NCBI GenBank assembly: GCA_943842505.1
Contig: CALTDI010000022.1
Span: 35,655 to 99,654 of the forward strand
Source: an uncultured Pseudomonadales bacterium
GTDB taxonomy: Bacteria; Pseudomonadota; Gammaproteobacteria; Pseudomonadales; Pseudohongiellaceae
Direction of reading: 5' to 3'
DNA length: 64,000 nucleotides
Of the stretch, positions 1,459-27,991 are shown one piece after another. The translations under genes and the position numbers were made by a program. Below the pieces are notes generated by a model. It saw only the letters and a list, made by a program, of their open reading frames with translations, was not told where the DNA came from and did not search any database. Every line of letters begins with the position of its first letter. Position 1 is the first letter of the stretch.

Positions 1459-2823
1459 ATGATCAGAACAAAACGCGGACTGAATCTACCGATTTCCGGA
1501 GCCCCTGAGCAGGAGCTAGGAAAGGCTCGGTCGACGCGGACTGTTGCGCTTCTAGGATGCGATTATGTGGGCATGAAGCCGACCATGCTCGTTGCCGAAG
1601 GCGACAAAGTGCTTCTGGGTCAGCCCCTGTTTCGCGACAAGAAAAACTCCTCCGTGACATTTACATCCCCTGGCTGCGGTCGAGTCAGCGGCATTAACCG
1701 TGGTCATCAACGAAAACTGCAGTCAGTGGTCATCGAGTTAGAGGAAAATGGGAAGGATGATGAGCAGGTAGCGCTTAATAGCTATATCGAATCTGCTCTG
1801 GGCGAGCTTCCGCGCGATACTATCATTGAGGACCTGCTTGTATCCGGTTTGTGGACTAGCATTCGAGTGCGTCCGTTCAGCAAGGTAGCAGACCCGGCTC
1901 GACAGGCACATTCGCTTTTTATCAACGCCATGGATACCAATCCGCTTGCCGCGCAGCCCAGCGTAGTGCTCAAAGATGAGATCCCGCACTTTGTTCTCGG
2001 TGTGAATCTGCTATCTAAACTGCCGCAGAATCAGACCTATGTCTGCGTCGACCGTAAGGTGGACGCGCAGCTCAAAGAGCAAGCGTTTGCGAGCAATATC
2101 AAAGTGCAGGAGTTCAGAGGGCCACATCCTTCAGGTCTGACTGGTACCCATATGCACTATCTGGAACCTGCTGGAATCGGCAAACAAATCTGGTCGCTTA
2201 ACTATCAAGACGTGATTGCGATCGGAAAACTGTTTAGCACCGGTAAGCTCAGCGTAGATCGCATTATATCTCTGGCGGGTCCGCAGGTGACTGAGCCGCG
2301 TCTGCTCAAGAGTCGCATAGGTGCCGATCTGCATGAACTTTGTGCAGGAGAGTTAGAACCTCACGAGAGCCGCATAATTTCGGGTTCTGTATTGGGTGGG
2401 CGCAGAGCGTTTGGAGCGGTGAGCTATCTTGGCCGTTACCATCTGCAAGTCTCCGCGTTACGCGAAGGGAGAGAACGTCCGCTATTGGGTTATCTCTCGC
2501 CGGGCGCCAATCGCCACTCCGTTATGGGGATCTACATATCAGGATTGGATAAGAGTAAACGCCATGCGATGTCTACCAGCACCCAGGGCAGCGATCGCGC
2601 GATGGTCCCTATCGGGGCCTACGAGAAGATCATGCCCCTCGATATTTTGCCTACGCAGCTATTGCGAGCATTGATTGTCGGGGATATCGAGACGGCGCAG
2701 AATCTCGGTGCGCTGGAGTTAGATGAGGAAGACCTGGCGCTTTGTAGTTATGTCTGTCCTGGAAAATATGAATACGGGCCTATGCTGCGTGACAATCTCA
2801 CGCAGATAGAGAAAGAGGCATAA
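1459..2823 (+). CDS. nqrA: Na+-translocating NADH:quinone reductase subunit A
   Basis: N-terminus [16 protein letters not shown], and [25 protein letters not shown] near the C-terminus; first gene of nqrABCDEF. Confidence 0.97.
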
Positions 2824-2829
2824 CGGGCA

Positions 2830-4047
2830 ATGGGACTTCGTCGCATTCTAGATGACATGGAGCCGCACTTTACCAAGGGCGGCCGCTTCGAGTCTTGGTA
2901 TGCCCTGTTCGAGGCTGTCGACACGATCTTCTACACCCCTAGCAAGGTCACAGTTGCCGAGCCTCATGTGCGCGATGGTATCGATCTGAAGCGGGTAATG
3001 ATCACGGTATGGTTTGCCGCTTTCTTTCCGATGTTCTATGGCATGTATAACATTGGTTTTCAGGCCAATAGTGCGATCGTTGCCATGGGTCTGGCAGGAA
3101 CTGGCGATTGGCATGAACTAATTATCGGTGCGCTGGCCGGGCATAATCCAGCGAGCATCTGGGATAATGTCGTCTACGGTGCGGCTCATTATTTCCCGAT
3201 CTATTTTATCGTTTTTGTTGTCGGCGGATTCTGGGAAGTGTTGTTCGCTATGAAGCGTGGACACGAAATCAACGAAGGATTCTTCGTTACGTCTATTCTA
3301 TTTACCCTGATCGTGCCGCCGGACATTCCCCTGTGGCAGGCGGCTCTGGGTATTAGTTTTGGTATCGTTGTCGGCAAAGAAGTATTCGGTGGTACCGGCA
3401 AGAATTTTTTAAATCCTGCTTTGACGGGCAGGGCATTTCTGTTCTTCGCCTATGCGCCGCAGATGTCCGGCGATGCGGTCTGGACGGCGATAGACGGATT
3501 CAGCGGTGCTACCCCACTTAGCCAGATTGCTGCCGAGGGCTTGCCCGCAATCGCTGTAGCGACAGGAAGGGAGCTTTCCTGGCTGAACGCCTTCTTCGGC
3601 CAGATGCAGGGCTCGATAGGCGAAACATCGACAATCGCTATTCTGCTTGGCGGCGCGGTGTTGTTGCTAACGCGGATCGCCTCATGGCGAATTATGCTGG
3701 GTGTATTTCTCGGCATGTGCGCAACGGCAACATTATTTAATTTCATAGGCTCCGACACTAATCCCGGTTTCGCTACGCCCTGGTACTGGCATTTTGTTCT
3801 GGGGGGCTTTGCCTTCGGCATGGTGTTCATGGCTACCGATCCAGTATCGGCTTCGATGACCAGCACCGGCAAGTGGATATTCGGTGCCTTAATAGGCTTC
3901 ATGATAGTGCTTATTCGAGTAGTGAATCCTGCCTATCCAGAGGGCGCCATGTTGGCTATCTTGTTCGCGAATCTGTTCGCGCCACTAATCGATTACTTTG
4001 TTGTGAAGGCAAATATAATGCGCAGGAGAGCACGCGGTGTCCTCTAA
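2830..4047 (+). CDS. nqrB: Na+-translocating NADH:quinone reductase subunit B
   Basis: Polytopic protein with covalent-FMN motif [10 protein letters not shown]; operon position. Confidence 0.97.
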
Positions 4048-4828
4048 AGATTCCACCAGAAAAACGCTGCTGGTCGCTTTCGGTCTTTGCGTGGTCTGTT
4101 CCATCGTCGTATCGGGCACCGCGGTGATACTGAAGCCCTTGCAGGATGCGAATCGAATTCTTGACAGGAATAAGAATATTCTGAGCGCCGCTGGCCTATT
4201 CGATTCACAGCAAGATGGCGATGAGGTTGTCACGGAGCGTTTTAACCAGTTCTCACCCTATGTCATCGATCTGAATGCGGCTCAGGTGCTTTCCACCGAG
4301 CAGCTGCAACAACTGCAGATAGATATAGAGAGCTACGACCAGCGTCTGGTTATCAATGATCCTAACTTCTCCGAAGCCTTGGGCAGGCAGAAAGACGTCG
4401 CGAATATTAAGCGCCGCGTTAACTATCCGATGATCTATGTCGTCGAGAATGGCGCCGAGATTGAGACTATAGTCGTGCCGATAAGTGGCTATGGCTTGTG
4501 GGGAATCCTCTATGGCTTCCTCGCTCTGGAGGGCGATGCGAATACGGTTAAGGGTTTGGCGTTCTACGAATTGAAGGAGACGCCGGGTTTGGGCGCGGAA
4601 GTTAGGAACCCAAGATGGACGGCGCTGTGGCCTGGCAAGAAGGTCTACGATGAACAGGGCGAGGTCGGTCTGAGAGTAGTGAAGGGTCAAGGTAGTGGTA
4701 ACTATCAGATCGACGGTCTTTCCGGGGCTACTCTCACCAGTCGCGGAGTCGATAATCTTATTCAGTACTGGCTCGGTGAAGATGGTTACGGGCCGGTTTT
4801 AGCTCAGCTTCGTGAGACGGGTTTATAG
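4037..4828 (+). CDS. nqrC: Na+-translocating NADH:quinone reductase subunit C
   Basis: FMN-binding domain with ETPGLGAEV and flavinylation motif [10 protein letters not shown] (acceptor Thr codon 4730-4732); overlaps nqrB by 11 bp. Confidence 0.97.
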
Positions 4829-4868
4829 CGCTTATGCCTTTTAAATTTATTAGTTTTGGTGTGCAAGT

Positions 4869-5531
4869 ATGAGTAGTGTTAAGCAAATATTACTAACGCC
4901 TCTTTTCGAGAACAATCCGATCGCCCTGCAGATTCTTGGGGTTTGTTCTGCCTTGGCGGTAACAACTCAGTTGAGTGTGACACTGGTGATGTGTGTTGCG
5001 CTAACGACGGTGACGGCATTCTCTAATCTGTTTATCTCGATGATACGGAATCAAATACCTTCGAGCATCCGAATCATCGTGCAGATGACGATAATTGCAT
5101 CCCTAGTAATAGCCGTCGACCAGTTCCTGCAGGCCTTCGCTTATGAAATTAGTAAGAACCTGAGTGTGTTCGTAGGCCTGATAATTACCAACTGTATTGT
5201 CATGGGTCGTGCCGAAGCATTTGCCATGAAGAATCCACCGGGGCTGAGTTTTCTAGATGGCATCGGAAACGGAATGGGCTATTCCCTGGTGCTTATTGTT
5301 GTCGCGTCTCTTCGCGAGCTTTTTGGTTCGGGTAGTCTGCTCGGGTTTCAGATTCTGCCCCTTATCGAAAATGGTGGTTGGTACCAGGCGAACGGCCTGA
5401 TGTTGTTGTCGCCCAGCGCCTTCTTCATCATCGGTTTCTTTATCTGGGCCCTGCGCAGCGTCAAGAAAGAGCAGGTTGAAACGCGAGAGTTTCGTATGGC
5501 ACCTCACTCTGCAGACGAGGGTGCGTTCTGA
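4869..5531 (+). CDS. nqrD: Na+-translocating NADH:quinone reductase subunit D
   Basis: Membrane protein with [18 protein letters not shown]; operon position. Confidence 0.97.
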
Positions 5532-6139
5532 TGGAGCAGTTACTGAGTCTGTTCGTAAAGGCGGTATTCATCGAGAACATGGCGCTGCAGATGTTTCTCG
5601 GCATGTGTACTTTTCTTGCTGTATCCAAGAAGGTTGAGACGGCGATAGGCTTGGGTGTTGCGGTGGTAGTGGTGCAGGTCATTACCGTGCCGGTTAACAA
5701 TATCATCTTCAATCAATTGCTGCGTGAAGGCGCTTTGGATTGGCTGGGGATGCCCGAGTTGTCGTTACAGTTTCTCGGTTTCCTGTGCTACATCGGTGTG
5801 ATTGCCGCGATAGTGCAGATTCTAGAGATGTTCCTGGATAAATTTGTTCCGGCGCTGTACAACGCGCTTGGCGTGTTCCTTCCGCTTATTACGGTGAACT
5901 GCGCCATCCTGGGATCGACTCTGTTAATGGTAGAGCGAGACTATTCCTTTCCGGAGAGTGTCGCGTTCGGCCTCGGTTCGGGATTCGGATGGGCTCTGGC
6001 AATCGTAGCTCTGGCCGGCATACGCGAAAAGCTCAAATACAGCGATGTGCCCGAAGGCTTGCGCGGTTTAGGTATCACCTTTATTACGGTTGGTTTGATG
6101 TCGCTAGGCTTTATGTCCCTGAGCGGCGTCTCTCTCTAG
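5531..6139 (+). CDS. nqrE: Na+-translocating NADH:quinone reductase subunit E
   Basis: Membrane protein with [12 protein letters not shown]; start overlaps nqrD stop. Confidence 0.97.
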
Positions 6140-6181
6140 ATGTCCGTAAATAGAAAAATTTAAGTAGAAACAGTTTATTCC

Positions 6182-7411
6182 ATGATTGATATCACAACCA
6201 TATTCGGCGGCGTCGCTCTATTCACCATCATCGTTATGCTGCTTGTAGGCGTAATCTTGCTCGCTCGCTCCAAGCTGGTGACCAGTGGTGACGTGCGCAT
6301 CGAGATCAACGACGATGCCGAGAAATCCATTGTCGTTCCAGCCGGTGGCAAGCTGTTAAACACGCTCGCCGATGCCGGCATCTTTCTGTCCTCGGCCTGT
6401 GGCGGTGGTGGTACCTGCGCGCAGTGTAAATGTCAGGTGCTCGACGGCGGTGGCTCTATGCTACCCACTGAGACCGGTCATTTCACCAGAGGACAGGCGA
6501 AGGACAACTGGCGTCTGTCCTGTCAGGTTGCAGTAAAGCAGGACATGAAGATTGAGATCGCGCCGGAATTCTTCGGCGTGAAACAGTGGGAGTGCACAGT
6601 TCGCTCAAACGACAATGTCGCCACCTTTATTAAGGAATTAGTTCTCGAGATACCCGATGGCGAGAGCGTTGACTTCAGGGCGGGGGGCTATGTGCAATTG
6701 GAAGTGCCTCCTCATGTCGTTAACTACAGCGATTTCGATATCGCGCAGGAGTATCGAGGTGACTGGAATCATTTCGGCCTGTTCGATGTGGTGTCAAAGG
6801 TTAACGACACGACGATACGGGCCTATTCGATGGCGAACTACCCTGAAGAGAAGGGGGTTATTAAGTTCAATATCCGCATAGCGACCCCACCCCCGGGCAC
6901 CAAGTTGCCTCCGGGTAAAATGTCCTCCTATGTGTTTGGGCTGAAGCCCGGTGATAAAGTTAAGGTGTTTGGCCCGTTCGGTGAATTTTTTGCGAAAGAC
7001 ACGGATGCAGAGATGGTGTTCATCGGCGGTGGTGCCGGTATGGCCCCGATGCGTTCGCATATCTTCGATCAGCTGCGCAGATTGCACAGTCATAGGAAGA
7101 TAAGCTTCTGGTATGGGGCAAGAAGTCTGCGCGAGATGTTCTACGAAGAAGACTATGACTCCTTGGCTGAGGAGAACGATAATTTTGATTGGCACGTCGC
7201 GCTCTCCGATCCACAGCCAGAGGATGAATGGGCTGGGATGACGGGCTTTATTCATAATGTCGTCTTGGAGAACTACCTCAAGAATCATCCTGCGCCAGAG
7301 GATTGTGAATACTATATGTGTGGGCCGCCGATGATGAATGCGGCTGTGGTCAAGATGCTGAAAGACTTGGGTGTAGAAGACGACAATATTGCTCTCGACG
7401 AATTTTCCTAG
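6182..7411 (+). CDS. nqrF: Na+-translocating NADH:quinone reductase subunit F
   Basis: 2Fe-2S motif [15 protein letters not shown] motif [10 protein letters not shown]-terminal [16 protein letters not shown]. Confidence 0.97.
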
Positions 7412-7446
7412 CAGACTATTTACTTTCCCTTCAAGGGTTATGCCGC

Positions 7447-8499
7447 ATGATTGAATTGCTCAAACGTCATAGCTTCTCTGCGACCTTCCTGGTTCTGTTC
7501 CTGAGCTTCGTGTTTTTCTTCGGCGGCGATGGTGAAGAAATTCAGCAGTTGAATGGCTTTACCATGGGCACGAGTTATCAGGTGCAGATTGTAGACATGC
7601 CGGATACTATTAGTGCCGAAGATCTAGCGGCAGACATCTCCGATCTGCTGGGTGAATTAGACACGGGGACGTTCTCAACCTATGCGAGCAACTCCGAGTT
7701 ATCTCGATTCAACCGGCACGGGGTAAATGTTCCCTTCATTGCCTCGTCTCGTATGATTGAAGTCTTATTGCTGGCGCAGGAAGTGGCAGCGCTTAGTGGG
7801 GGTGCTTTCGACGTGACGGTTGGGCCTCTGGTAAATCTTTGGGGTTTCGGCCCCGATCTTGCGGTATTCGAGACGGTGCCAAGCCAGTCACAGATCGACA
7901 CGGCATTGAATCGAGTGGGGTTTCAGTATCTGCGTATCAGTCCTTCCTCGCAGGAAATTCGCAAGACCCGTGATATCTACGTCGACCTCAGTGCCATAGC
8001 AAAGGGCTATGCAGTGGATCAGCTTGCCGAGCATTTGGATGGGGTGGGTGTGGATAATTACTTTCTGGAGATCGGTGGCGAGTTAAAGATCAAAGGCTCC
8101 AAGCCGGGAGCCGATGGTTGGGTGCCAGCCATAGAGACGCCATTAGACGCGGGCTCGCAGGTCTATCAGATATTCTACAGCCGTGGTGATAATATAGCGG
8201 TGGCAGGTTCTGGAGATTACAAGAACTATTTTGAGGAGAATGGTCAGCGTTACTCCCATGAGATCGATCCACGAAATGGTAGATCTGTCACCCATAGATT
8301 GGCAGCCGCCTATGTTATAGATGATTCGGTGGCGCGAGCAGATGCTCTTGCTACAACTTATATGGTGTTGGGTCCCGAGGCAGCAGAGGCTCTTGCAGCG
8401 AGACAGAATCAGGCCGTGTATTTTATCTATAAGAGCGAGACCGAGGGCTTCGAAGATTTTATAAGCGATGAATTCGAGCACTACCTTGGAAACAATTAG
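7447..8499 (+). CDS. apbE: FAD:protein FMN transferase ApbE
   Basis: GFTMGTSYQVQIV, VDLSAIAKGYAVDQ, ATTYMVLG. ATG at 7447 chosen; the upstream extension overlaps nqrF. Confidence 0.95.
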   Translation: MIELLKRHSFSATFLVLFLSFVFFFGGDGEEIQQLNGFTMGTSYQVQIVDMPDTISAEDLAADISDLLGELDTGTFSTYASNSELSRFNRHGVNVPFIASSRMIEVLLLAQEVAALSGGAFDVTVGPLVNLWGFGPDLAVFETVPSQSQIDTALNRVGFQYLRISPSSQEIRKTRDIYVDLSAIAKGYAVDQLAEHLDGVGVDNYFLEIGGELKIKGSKPGADGWVPAIETPLDAGSQVYQIFYSRGDNIAVAGSGDYKNYFEENGQRYSHEIDPRNGRSVTHRLAAAYVIDDSVARADALATTYMVLGPEAAEALAARQNQAVYFIYKSETEGFEDFISDEFEHYLGNN

Positions 8500-8535
8500 A
8501 GAAAGAGAAAAGGAAAGAGGCGCAGAGGAAGAAAG

Positions 8536-8721
8536 ATGTTGAGTTTTATAATTACATTCGTAGTCATCGCCGTGGTGATTGCCATCATGTCAGTGGGTGT
8601 TCTATTTGGTCGCAAGCCTGTGCAGGGTTCCTGCGGCGGTCTGAATAATATAGGTGGGATGAATGAATGCGAAATTTGCGGTGGCGAGCCACAGAAATGT
8701 GAGCGTAAAGAGGCAGCCTAA
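8536..8721 (+). CDS. nqrM: (Na+)-NQR maturation protein NqrM
   Basis: 61 aa: one TM segment followed by a Cys-rich tail (GSCGGLNNIGGMNECEICGGEPQKCE), directly after apbE in the nqr locus. Confidence 0.9.
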   Translation: MLSFIITFVVIAVVIAIMSVGVLFGRKPVQGSCGGLNNIGGMNECEICGGEPQKCERKEAA

Positions 8722-8775
8722 GATAAAGGCCTGAAAATCAAACTGGGTAACTAGATAACGGAAAGACTGAGGCAT

Positions 8776-10161
8776 ATGGAAAAAAAGCACTTTGATATTA
8801 TCGTTATTGGCAGCGGGCCTGCGGGTGAGGCTGCTGCGATGAATGCGAAGAAGAAGGGTCGCACTGTCGCCGTTGTCTGCGATCTGGAATACGTAGGCGG
8901 AAGCTGCACTCATCTAGGCACTATCCCTTCAAAGTCGCTACGCCACTCCGTAAAGCAAGTCATGCAATTCAATTCCAATCCGATGTTCAGGGACTTGGGT
9001 GACGCCAGGAAGTTGAGTTTTCAGCAAGTGTTGAAGCATGCCGAGAGGGTGATCTATGAACAGGTAAGTATGCGCACTGATTTCTACGATAGAAATCACA
9101 TCCCAATATTTAAGGGGCGCGCAAGCTTTCTGGATAAGCACACGATCAAGCTCGTTGGGAAACGTAAAAAGCTGTCGGCAGATTATTTTGTAATCGCTAC
9201 CGGTTCCAGTCCGTATCATCCACCCGGTGTGGATTTCTCTCACCCCTGCGTCTTCGATAGCGACAGCATTCTGGATCTGGATCATTCGCCACGCAAGGTT
9301 ACCGTTATCGGTGCCGGTGTTATCGGCTGTGAATACGCGTCCATATTTGGTGGCCTGGGTTGCAAAGTCGAATTGATAAACCCCGCTTCCGGACTACTCA
9401 CCTTTCTCGATACGGAGATAGCCGATGCGCTTAGCTATCACCTGCGCAACCTGGGCGTGCGCAGTCGTCATAATGAAGAATTTGAGAAGATGGAGTATCA
9501 CGATGATCACATCGTGACTTATCTGCAGTCCGGTAAGAAAATACGCAGCGATATCGTACTTTGGGCGAACGGTAGGAGTGGCAATACAAGTAACCTCGGG
9601 CTTAAGCAGATAGGTTTGGAGACGAATACTCGGCAACAAATCTCTGTAGATGATAACTACCGGACATCTGTTAAGAATGTCTATGCAGCCGGTGATGTGA
9701 TCGGCTGGCCATCCTTGGCAGGAGCCGCCTATGACCAGGGTAGGGCAGCAAGTAACGCCATCGTGGCGCCGGATGACTGTTACCACGTTGAGCAAGTTGC
9801 CACTGGCATCTATACGATTCCAGAGATCAGCACTCTCGGGGCTACTGAGCAGGAATTAACGGAGCAGAAGATACCCTACGAAGTGGGTAAGGCTTTCTTC
9901 AAGAATACAGCGCGAGCCCAGATAACCGGTGAGCAGGTAGGCATGCTGAAGCTGATCTTTCATTTCGAGACTCTAGAGTTGTTAGGTATTCACTGTTTCG
10001 GAGATCAGGCGTCTGAGATTGTCCACATCGGTCAGGCGATCATGCGTCAGCCACCTCCAGCGAACTCGATGAAATACTTCCTAACCACTACATTTAATTA
10101 CCCGACTATGGCCGAAGCCTATAGAACGGCTGCCCTGGATGGCTTGAACAGAGTTTTCTAG
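8776..10161 (+). CDS. sthA: Si-specific (soluble) NAD(P)+ transhydrogenase
   Basis: Flavoprotein disulfide reductase fold, [18 protein letters not shown], with [17 protein letters not shown] instead of a redox-active CxxxxC pair, as in SthA. Confidence 0.95.
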
Positions 10162-24654: not shown

Positions 24655-26124
24655 ATGACTATGACGTTTGACGATTTATTGCCTCTGATGCCGCTACTGA
24701 TAGTGACGGCAACGTCGGTCTTGGCGATGCTGATGATTGGTGTGCGTCGAAGCTATATCGTGACGGCTTCGATTACGATTACCGGTCTATTGGCGGCGAC
24801 ACTAGTCGCCATTTCGATGATGGATTCGACGAATCAGCAGATTACTCCGCTACTTATTATCGATCAGTACAGCTTGTTGTTTACCGTGCTGGTCTGTGCC
24901 TCAGCGATGCTCATCGCTATTCTTAGCTTTTCCTATTTCTTCGAGTTGGACGACCATAAGGAAGAGTTTTTCTTGCTGTTAACGATCGCGACTATAGGCG
25001 CAATCGTAATGGTCAGCAGCAATCATTTCGTTAGTACAGTCTTGGGGCTAGAGACGCTAAGCATGTCTCTATACGGCATGATCGCCTATCCAATGCACAG
25101 CAAACAGTCTGCGAAGTATCCTCTGGAAGCCTCTGTTAAATATCTTGTTCTTTCGGCCGCCGCTTCCGGTTTTATTTTATTCGGCATGGCGCTTATCTAT
25201 GCGCAGACCGGCACGCTGTCTTTTGCCAGTCTCACAGATCTGCCCATGGCTGCGGATAGTTTGGGGGATAGATATTCGATCATAGCCTTGCTGATGATAA
25301 CCGCTGGCATGGCCTTTAAGCTCTCCTTGGCACCTTTTCATATGTGGACACCCGATGTATATGAGGGCTCTCCGATTCCCGCTACGGCCTATCTCGCTAC
25401 CATAGGCAAGGCGGCGATGTTCGTCGTGTTGCTACGATTTATTCGAGTGAGTGATGCGCTAAGTTTTGATTCGATGGTGATGGCATTAACCTTGGTAGCT
25501 GCTGCGTCTATGCTGGTAGGCAATCTGCTGGCATTGCTGCAAGATAATTTGAAGCGCATACTGGCGTATTCTTCTATCGCGCATATGGGTTATCTGCTGC
25601 TTGCGCTTGTTGCCAGCCACTATGCTACCGGCACTCTCGCCGTGGAGGCCGTGACTTTCTATCTAATAGCCTATGTGATCACATCCTTAGGTGCCTTCGG
25701 TGTGGCCTCTGTCATCTCCTCTAGTGAGAAAGAGTTCGATTCTATAAAGGACTACAGGGGACTGTTCTGGAGAAACCCATGGCTGGCTAGTATTTTTATA
25801 GCGATGCTGTTGTCTCTTGCAGGAATACCATTGACGGTAGGATTTATTGGCAAGTTCTATATATTCCTCGCCGGTGTGGAGTCTGACCTTTGGATGTTAT
25901 TGGCTGTATTGGTTTTAGGCAGCGGCATAGGCCTGTATTACTACCTACGCATCGTCTATCGAATGCTCATGACTGAGAAGCACAAGATTCCTTACCGAGT
26001 GGGTGGTGTAGAGAGTGTTAGTGCCTACGGTGTATTAGCTATTCTACTATTCTTGCTTCTGCTCTTTGGTGTCTATCCCGCACCGATAATGTCATTAGTT
26101 GCTGCGGCTTCGGCGTTTATCTAA
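24655..26124 (+). CDS. nuoN: NADH-quinone oxidoreductase subunit N
   Basis: LASIFIAMLLSLAGIPLTVGFIGKFYIF, KLSLAPFHMWTPDVYEGSPIPATAYLAT; last nuo gene. Confidence 0.97.
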   Translation: MTMTFDDLLPLMPLLIVTATSVLAMLMIGVRRSYIVTASITITGLLAATLVAISMMDSTNQQITPLLIIDQYSLLFTVLVCASAMLIAILSFSYFFELDDHKEEFFLLLTIATIGAIVMVSSNHFVSTVLGLETLSMSLYGMIAYPMHSKQSAKYPLEASVKYLVLSAAASGFILFGMALIYAQTGTLSFASLTDLPMAADSLGDRYSIIALLMITAGMAFKLSLAPFHMWTPDVYEGSPIPATAYLATIGKAAMFVVLLRFIRVSDALSFDSMVMALTLVAAASMLVGNLLALLQDNLKRILAYSSIAHMGYLLLALVASHYATGTLAVEAVTFYLIAYVITSLGAFGVASVISSSEKEFDSIKDYRGLFWRNPWLASIFIAMLLSLAGIPLTVGFIGKFYIFLAGVESDLWMLLAVLVLGSGIGLYYYLRIVYRMLMTEKHKIPYRVGGVESVSAYGVLAILLFLLLLFGVYPAPIMSLVAAASAFI

Positions 26125-26190: not shown

Positions 26191-26841
26191 TTGAATGCAT
26201 CTATAGTCCAAACTCTTAAAGATAAACTTCTACAGTTAGCGATACTGACTGTTATCGTAGGTCTGCTGCTGCTTCTCAACAGCGTAACAGGCGACAGTCT
26301 GCTCGCTGCCAGGCAGGAATTCGATAGGCGCAATCTTTATCAGTTCTTCGAAGAAGGAAGTTTTGATAATGACCTGGTTCTAGATAGCTATTTACTAACG
26401 GCGGATAAGGAGAGCGAAAAACTCGAAAATTTACATCTGTTAAATCTGGACCGAGACAGGCTTGCCTATATAGCGAGAAAGGATGGGCAGGCGGTTGCGG
26501 TAGCGGTGCCTACGACTGCAGATGACGGATTCAATGGCAAGATTGAATTATTGATTGCTGTGGATATGTATGGCCGTATTAGTGCCGCGCGAGTGATCGA
26601 AGATATCAATTCCGATCAGCTTTACGGGGTAGTCGATGTCATCGGCTCGAAGTGGATGGGTGAATTTGCAGAAAACAGTATGCGAGATATCCTGCGCCTG
26701 AGCTGGCAGGCGATTACTGCCGATAATGAATATGATCAGTTCGTAGGCGCGTCAATCACCCCCAAGTCCGTTGCCAATCAGATCTACGATGCGCTCGTCT
26801 TCTACCAATCTAACCGAATAGAGCTGATGCGCGGCAGTTAG
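26191..26841 (+). CDS. orphan RnfG-like FMN-binding domain protein
   Basis: One N-terminal TM helix, a domain with RnfG-like pattern (DGFNGKIELLIAVDMYGRISAARVIED ... YDQFVGASITPKSVANQIYDAL). No rnfA/B/C/D/E neighbours. Confidence 0.8.
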   Translation: MNASIVQTLKDKLLQLAILTVIVGLLLLLNSVTGDSLLAARQEFDRRNLYQFFEEGSFDNDLVLDSYLLTADKESEKLENLHLLNLDRDRLAYIARKDGQAVAVAVPTTADDGFNGKIELLIAVDMYGRISAARVIEDINSDQLYGVVDVIGSKWMGEFAENSMRDILRLSWQAITADNEYDQFVGASITPKSVANQIYDALVFYQSNRIELMRGS

Positions 26842-26959
26842 GGCGGCTAGCGGGGCTTGAATGGTATTCAATGGTCGCTTTTCCTGGCGCCTTCGTCGCC
26901 TTGGTATTGAGGCGTAATCAGACTATCATTGTGTGTTGTATGGACAGTTAAGGACTACC

Positions 26960-27991
26960 ATGTCTGCATTTAAAGTCTCGGTTATAGGAGGGGGTAGTTT
27001 TGGTACGGTAATTGCCAATATTACTGCCGAGAACGGTCACGATGTCGGTTTCTGGATGCGCAGCGAATCTCAAGCGCAGGAGTTGAATAGGCTCCATGAG
27101 AATACCCAATACCTGCCGGACTATCGGTTGAATGAAAGAATCCATGCTACTAGCGATATGGCGGAGGCAGTCAAGGACAGTAGGCTAATCTTCGTCGCCG
27201 TGCCGAGTTCTTCCTTCAGGCAGGTAGTGAGCGACATGGTGCCCCACATCCCAGAGGACGTCATTCTTGTCAGCACCACAAAAGGCATTGAAGCGGGCAG
27301 CTTCGCCATGATGAGCCAGATACTCAATCAAGAGGCACCGCGAGCCAGGGTTGGGGTGCTAAGCGGGCCCAACCTGGCTTTAGAGATCGCCAAGAAAGAC
27401 CTTGCTGGCACTGTGATTGCCAGTCCAGAAGAAGATGTGAGAGAGATAGTCAAGAGTGCACTGAAGTCCAAGTATTTTAGAGTCTACGCCAATAACGATA
27501 TGTTTGGTGTGGAGCTTGGGGGATCGCTAAAGAACATCTATGCCATTATAGCCGGCATCGCTGCAGCCCTCGGCATGGGGCACAACACAAATAGTATGTT
27601 GGTAACTCGCGCTCTGACGGAGATGGCAAGATTTGGCAAAGAGTTGGGTGCCGATCCAATGACATTTCTAGGCCTGGCTGGCGTGGGAGATCTTGTCGTT
27701 ACCTGCTCTACACCACTAAGTCGCAACTACAGAATCGGGCTCGCGCTAGGAAAGGGCACGCCGGTAGAAAAGGCGGTTGCCGAGTTGGGTCAGGTGGCAG
27801 AGGGTGTGAATACAGTAAAGCTTGTGCGGGAGAAAGCGCAGGAATTGGGGGTATACATGCCACTTGCAAATGGCCTGTATAAGATAATTTATGAGAACGA
27901 CTCGCTGGATAATATAATCTCATCGCTGATGCTGAGCGAGCAGGCACTGGATGTAGAGTTTGCCGCTAATGAGGATAAGGTCCTAGATTAG
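26960..27991 (+). CDS. gpsA: glycerol-3-phosphate dehydrogenase [NAD(P)+]
   Basis: VIGGGSFGTVIANITAENGHDVGFWMR, GVLSGPNLALEIAKK, LGGSLKNIYAIIAGIAAALGMGHNT. ATG 26960 preferred over 26933. Confidence 0.95.
   Translation: MSAFKVSVIGGGSFGTVIANITAENGHDVGFWMRSESQAQELNRLHENTQYLPDYRLNERIHATSDMAEAVKDSRLIFVAVPSSSFRQVVSDMVPHIPEDVILVSTTKGIEAGSFAMMSQILNQEAPRARVGVLSGPNLALEIAKKDLAGTVIASPEEDVREIVKSALKSKYFRVYANNDMFGVELGGSLKNIYAIIAGIAAALGMGHNTNSMLVTRALTEMARFGKELGADPMTFLGLAGVGDLVVTCSTPLSRNYRIGLALGKGTPVEKAVAELGQVAEGVNTVKLVREKAQELGVYMPLANGLYKIIYENDSLDNIISSLMLSEQALDVEFAANEDKVLD

Follow-up and report, generated by a model that had tools for sequence, protein, structure and literature searches.

The orphan FMN-binding protein encoded directly downstream of nuoN is very probably the displaced RnfG subunit of the genome's own Rnf complex, an Rsx-type complex that lacks the ligands of the membrane [2Fe-2S] cluster (AE1) and in which RnfG appears to be optional, though still under selection. 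The window, by which we mean the whole stretch of 64,000 nucleotides analyzed here, comes from an uncultured Pseudomonadales bacterium, and the gene occupies positions 26191–26841 of its forward strand. It has a TTG start and a product of 216 amino acids, laid out as in a diverged RnfG/RsxG subunit with an N-terminal transmembrane helix and then a periplasmic FMN_bind domain. The start codon is uncertain, as the open frame extends to 238 amino acids and near relatives begin upstream of 26191. A gap of 66 bp separates the gene from the end of nuoN (24655–26124, forward strand), which is the upstream neighbor in genus g1 only, and gpsA (26933–27991, forward strand) is the downstream neighbor in both genera that have the displaced gene. 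Coordinates and profile scores thus confirm the preliminary description of an RnfG-like protein standing alone at this position.

The protein matched the FMN_bind profile (PF04205) at 25.7 bits, above the cut-off of 22, and gave near full-length matches below the cut-off to both TIGR01947 for rnfG (81.9 bits, E of 6e-23, cut-off 102) and NF002519 for RsxG (98 bits, cut-off 178). An AlphaFold2 model had a pLDDT of 80.6, with low confidence in the flavin-site loops, and a Foldseek comparison of this model with the PDB returned RnfG for all of the top five matches (best E of 3.7e-8), with NqrC next. These data show that the orphan is a genuine RnfG homologue, a diverged member that TIGR01947 and NF002519 would not name automatically. 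The subunit itself is ordinary, though oddly located, and the novelty lies in its complex, a variant on a known type.

The rest of that complex is encoded on another contig of the same genome (C19) in the order rnfA-rnfB-rnfC-rnfD-rnfE-nth without rnfG; rnfD and rnfE overlap there by 4 bp, with no space for rnfG between them. That the gene lies in no Rnf operon is therefore true for the window, but the genome does hold rnfABCDE. The proposal that the gene is a relic of a lost Rnf was rejected for this genome, as an operon complete but for exactly rnfG, the finding named beforehand as refuting it, is present on C19. It does describe three rnf-negative relatives (G007, G016, and G336), in which only rnfG pseudogenes at the old site are left. 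A search of the genome with PF04205 yielded four proteins, namely NqrC, the orphan, an FMN_bind protein of 188 amino acids with a signal-peptide-like start and the site DGIVKATIS (contig C26; L002, 1471–2037), and an FMN_bind, NosR-like membrane protein (contig C8; L003, 1219–3246).

From the reading of operons and flanks, DISPLACEMENT is old and common to genera g1 and g23. In g1, the operon runs metG..rnfABCDE-nth without rnfG, and the orphan is flanked by nuoN and gpsA in every intact copy with flanks read; a methyltransferase gene frequently precedes gpsA. The intervening gene, present in many relatives (L036, 6661–7407; L094, 5730–6476) and missing from the window, encodes a SAM-dependent methyltransferase. 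In g23, six genomes bear rnfC, and the same six, with no others, have the orphan; their rnf operon is also without rnfG, in the same arrangement as in g1. In the two g23 genomes read at this locus, the orphan precedes gpsA and adjoins the nqr cluster, with no nuo there; the order in G304 is nqrF-apbE-NqrM-like ORF-sthA-rnfG-gpsA. Other genera of the family (g113, g114, and g118) carry rnfG within the operon. The RnfG tree unites the displaced copies in one clade (support 100/100) that has a long stem (2.69) and falls among the in-operon RnfG sequences of the family, grouping with g113 (97/95). A horizontal origin of the orphan was rejected on the basis of this tree, and tree and synteny point to displacement in the common ancestor of g1 and g23. 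A different split Rnf was seen in G054 of family f19 (L091, L055), where rnfABCD and rnfG-rnfE-nth are on separate contigs and the cluster cysteines are kept.

Because the g23 orthologue adjoins nqr-apbE-sthA without nuo, the link to nuoN is secondary. In the window, nqr-apbE-sthA lies at 1459–10161, and therefore it is nuo that separates sthA (Si-specific NAD(P)+ transhydrogenase; 8776–10161, forward strand), the orthologue of which directly precedes rnfG in g23, from rnfG in g1. The preliminary description had favored a flavoprotein tied to complex I, either accessory or repurposed, which would be flavinylated on Ser-188 and work with Nuo, and the position directly after nuoN on the same strand, conserved across g1, is what such a protein would show. 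That linkage does not extend to the sister genus, however, where sthA and nqr-apbE take the place of nuo; within g1, rnfG has disappeared or been disrupted in genomes where nuoN persists, and its fate tracks rnf rather than nuo. Fold and tree also place the orphan in RnfG. Synteny in g23 and co-loss with rnf led us to reject the tie to complex I, which we consider exceedingly improbable.

The predicted ApbE flavinylation site of the orphan, DQFVGASIT (26734–26760, forward strand), has Ser-188 as acceptor, and the acceptor hydroxyl of the DxxxGA[S/T] motif is present. Displaced copies in g1 and g23 carry a near-invariant DQFVGASITP in which the predicted serine acceptor is kept, and the in-operon RnfG of g113 reads DQFVGATITP. 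This site had been called degenerate and put forward as the key oddity of the protein, an assessment that we downgraded. It does differ from the textbook motif, but the missing serine or threonine at −3 is ordinary, because the RnfG of g113, like other ordinary in-operon RnfG from g113 and g114, has valine there and that of A. vinelandii (DQFAGATITP) has alanine. Serine is a documented acceptor, which ApbE uses less efficiently than threonine (PMC12052999). The second change stood as first described and where it had been located: in the alignment with relatives, EDINSDQLYG (26599–26628, forward strand) takes the place of the canonical RnfG HxETPGLGD loop. No g1 or g23 copy read retains the ETPGLG loop, which is intact in most in-operon RnfG sequences of sister genera, including g113. 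In RnfG of C. tetanomorphum, three loops hold the FMN, one of them being loop 114–128 (PMC9588780), and the lost loop seems to correspond by position to one of the three. As judged from these alignments, the special changes in the orphan are only the Thr-to-Ser substitution and the loss of this loop.

The candidate modifier of Ser-188 is the apbE gene (FAD:protein FMN transferase; 7318–8499, forward strand) of the window's nqr cluster. Its presence near 7447 had been noted earlier; the qualification is that it forms part of a complete nqrABCDEF-apbE cluster, in which nqrABCDEF (1459–7411, forward strand) encodes a Na+-NQR with its own NqrC. With the sites DGFSGATPL and DGLSGATLT, respectively, NqrB and NqrC are the obvious predicted substrates of this enzyme.

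The partner complex has lost the membrane cluster ligands. In this genome, Ser-32 and Ser-120 of RnfA align with Cys-25 and Cys-113 of solved Rnf structures, and a serine and an isoleucine of RnfE align with its two cysteines; the lost positions coincide with the cluster cysteines of RnfA, RnfE, and Nqr in the PDB. Across 27 RnfA and 25 RnfE sequences of g1 (one of the latter, from G002, ends at a contig edge before the second ligand position), none of the four AE1 ligands was found. The usual replacements are Ser and Ser in RnfA and Ser and a hydrophobic residue in RnfE, and the g23 pattern is Glu/Asp, Ser, Ala, and Ala/Gly. Outside the family, both RnfA cysteines were present in 28 of 28 sequences checked first and in nearly all later ones. 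The other cofactor sites are intact: every g1 sequence keeps the cluster cysteines of RnfB (12/12) and RnfC (8/8), RnfD keeps its FMN acceptor threonine (DGLAMATPL), and NqrD and NqrE of the same genome, which serve as an internal control, retain all four cluster cysteines. RnfB, RnfC, and RnfD passed the curated NCBIfam subfamily cut-offs, whereas RnfA, RnfE, and RnfG failed them. The AlphaFold model of RnfA (pLDDT 64) was left out of the analysis. The limb affected is precisely that from RnfA/E to RnfG. In PMC11889175, the AE1 cysteine ligands of RnfA and RnfE are named, the membrane cluster relays electrons between RnfB and RnfG in that direction, mutation of these cysteines in A. woodii abolishes growth and Fd:NAD activity, and the cluster is described as essential in Rnf; PMC9588780 calls the RnfA/RnfE membrane metal site strictly conserved. 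Within the portions of the open-licence literature searched, we found no report of RnfA/E cluster-ligand loss and nothing on an incomplete Rnf or an Rnf lacking RnfG.

Most g1 RnfE sequences have a cysteine located two positions ahead of the missing ligand (LICCN), and an altered metal site is formally possible. The serines of RnfA and RnfE together with this shifted cysteine might coordinate a different metal or a cluster with oxygen ligands, with transmembrane transfer continuing via RnfG. Three of the four positions are indeed near-invariantly serine in g1, "CCN" is frequent in RnfE, and RnfG is still constrained. Such a site is nevertheless quite unlikely: a hydrophobic residue fills the fourth position, no cysteine lies nearby in G011, the g23 residues are Glu/Asp, Ser, Ala, and Gly/Ala, and rnfG is often lost.

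Ligand loss is also seen in g113, where rnfG is in place. Three of its genomes (G283, G285, and G290), and probably a fourth (G289), have lost differing subsets of the ligands, and three others (G280, G286, and G281) retain all four. The tree of RnfB plus RnfD needs at least three changes of ligand state, and the partial losses arose separately in these relatives. Several other variants were observed in passing. G183 of family f21 (L167, 6090–9863) has rnfA-rnfB-rnfD-rnfG-rnfE-nth without rnfC, with Asp/Ala at the cluster positions of RnfA and one cysteine kept in RnfE. G337 carries, beside its cluster-less Rnf, a second, canonical, cysteine-bearing Rnf in the order C-D-G-E-A (contig C52; L202). 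A converse erosion occurs in g114 and g118 (L190, 7982–8308; L207, 8783–9184), where the in-operon rnfC is reduced to its C-terminal Fe-S part, without the NADH/FMN part, and the membrane cluster cysteines and rnfG are kept.

An intact rnfG was found in 28 of 41 rnfC-positive g1 genomes versus 1 of 43 rnfC-negative ones (Fisher p of 2.9e-11, a value that ignores kinship); the corresponding g1 total of 84 genomes is an inferred figure, and almost all of the genomes look like MAGs. The single exception, G368, which is 58% complete, has an intact rnfG with rnfC not detected. In the other direction, at least eight genomes have rnfABCDE but a lost or damaged rnfG: it is broken in G003, G343, G338, G359, and G363 and absent from an intact site in G025, G350, and G367, all of them with rnfC. 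Where we read the operons of this group (G003, G343, G359, G025, G350, and G367), the five rnf genes are open. By this distribution, rnfG depends on rnfABCDE and not the reverse. In the three closest g1 genomes, dN/dS was 0.08–0.10 for rnfA and rnfG, 0.07–0.08 for rnfD, 0.11–0.16 for rnfB, and about 0.16–0.19 for rnfC and rnfE. RnfG is thus under purifying selection where it is present, and optional does not mean useless; the subunit may serve some separate function in the periplasm.

The constraint on the complex also bears on whether it is a dying, functionless relic, the genes of which persist by chance. About half of g1 is without rnfC, lone rnfB genes or fragments lie between metG and nth, and rnfG pseudogenes are common, all as expected of decay. 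The five rnf genes nevertheless have intact open reading frames with dN/dS of 0.05–0.35 across the pairs compared (0.10–0.26 for rnfA-E between G365 and G350, neither of which has a detectable rnfG), and the 20 Fe-S cysteines are perfectly retained, which makes a mere relic very unlikely. In four rnfC-less genomes (G027, G024, G022, and G031; L057, L058, L059, and L060), rnfB persists, whole or as a fragment, between metG and nth, sometimes followed by a short ORF for the C-terminal ferredoxin-like part of RnfC. The repeated survival of a lone rnfB there is consistent with RnfB being the last component still required. At the same site in G044 of family f9 (L056, 3372–6237), all that is left is rnfB and a fusion of RnfD with RnfG, in frame and 615 amino acids long; rnfA, rnfC, and rnfE were not found between metG and nth.

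A one-way path has been proposed for partial "NQR/RNF-like" systems (eLife 2021, PMC8238504), and a comparable half-path here would run from NADH through RnfC and the RnfD flavins to the FMN of RnfG and a periplasmic acceptor, bypassing AE1. RnfC, the acceptor threonine of RnfD, and the acceptor hydroxyl of RnfG are all kept, and the same paper describes single-path clusters. We find this doubtful, however, given that rnfG is the most dispensable subunit and that rnfA, rnfB, and rnfE stay under selection though unneeded for such a path.

Our preferred reading remains a displaced rnfG serving an AE1-less complex. Its parts drawn directly from the sequence comparisons are the RnfG identity, the displacement, the ligand loss, the constraint, and the one-way dependence. 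In the ancestor of g1 and g23, rnfG left rnfABCDGE-nth and landed upstream of gpsA, with nuo adjoining in g1. Along this lineage, the four AE1 cysteines disappeared from RnfA and RnfE, and RnfG lost its ETPGLG loop and exchanged its threonine acceptor for serine. Without AE1, the limb from RnfB through AE1 to FMN-RnfG would be broken and the complex presumably could not run its transmembrane loop; RnfG would therefore receive no electrons by the normal route and would now be optional. Most species keep it, and in these the ApbE encoded with nqr probably still flavinylates it and it is predicted to dock on RnfD; elsewhere it has repeatedly been lost or broken, as might befit a leftover or side-branch flavoprotein of the complex. 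The remainder, with all the Fe-S ligands of RnfB and RnfC and the FMN threonine of RnfD, stays under selection. What it does is a guess that we offer tentatively: cytoplasmic electron exchange, Rsx-like, between NADH/RnfC, RnfB, and a redox partner, with RnfADE as a membrane platform. Somewhat better, if still short of an even chance, is the broader proposition of an Rnf-derived complex that works and is under selection although it has dispensed with its intramembrane [2Fe-2S] cluster and no longer requires RnfG, an ex-pump that is now either a membrane-anchored NADH-RnfC-RnfB reductase or a redox-gated RnfA/E ion carrier. In the ion-carrier version, RnfA/E would be gated by the redox state of RnfB/RnfC, with serines at the former cluster site.

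If this is true, a lineage of uncultured gammaproteobacteria has converted to another use what was a transmembrane pump driven by redox reactions. A clade minus just the AE1 ligands, with cytoplasmic Fe-S ligands intact and RnfG eroding in parallel, amounts to a natural mutagenesis experiment for which a neighboring genus supplies partial intermediates of ligand loss. With such a clade, what the cluster contributes to electron transfer as opposed to ion movement can be tested directly, and the question arises of what Rnf/Rsx does besides pumping, not least what Rsx does in aerobes.

Among known systems, the orphan shares its fold with RnfG/RsxG of RnfABCDGE (TIGR01947; 8ahx_G, 8rb9_G, 9eri_G, and 7zc6_G), as well as the single N-terminal membrane helix followed by an FMN_bind domain and the DQFxGA[S/T]ITP site, and it originates inside the family's RnfG tree. 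It differs in that its gene lies outside the operon, the ETPGLG loop is gone, the acceptor is serine rather than threonine, the score falls under the TIGR01947 cut-off, and the partner RnfA/E are without [2Fe-2S] ligands. NqrC of Na+-NQR is a distant homologue and an ApbE substrate, but it is present as a separate, canonical copy in the same window. With Rnf and Rsx (A. vinelandii Rnf1, A. woodii Rnf, and E. coli Rsx), the g1 complex has in common the rnfA, B, C, D, E order, the nth neighbor, the Fe-S ligands of RnfB and RnfC, and the FMN threonine of RnfD; in contrast to them, all four AE1 cysteines are replaced and rnfG is displaced or absent. In the NQR/RNF-like partial systems of Actinobacteria and CPR (PMC8238504), only one of two transmembrane electron limbs appears complete, as here, whereas the g1 complex keeps the genes for RnfA, B, C, D, and E and has lost only the AE1 ligands.
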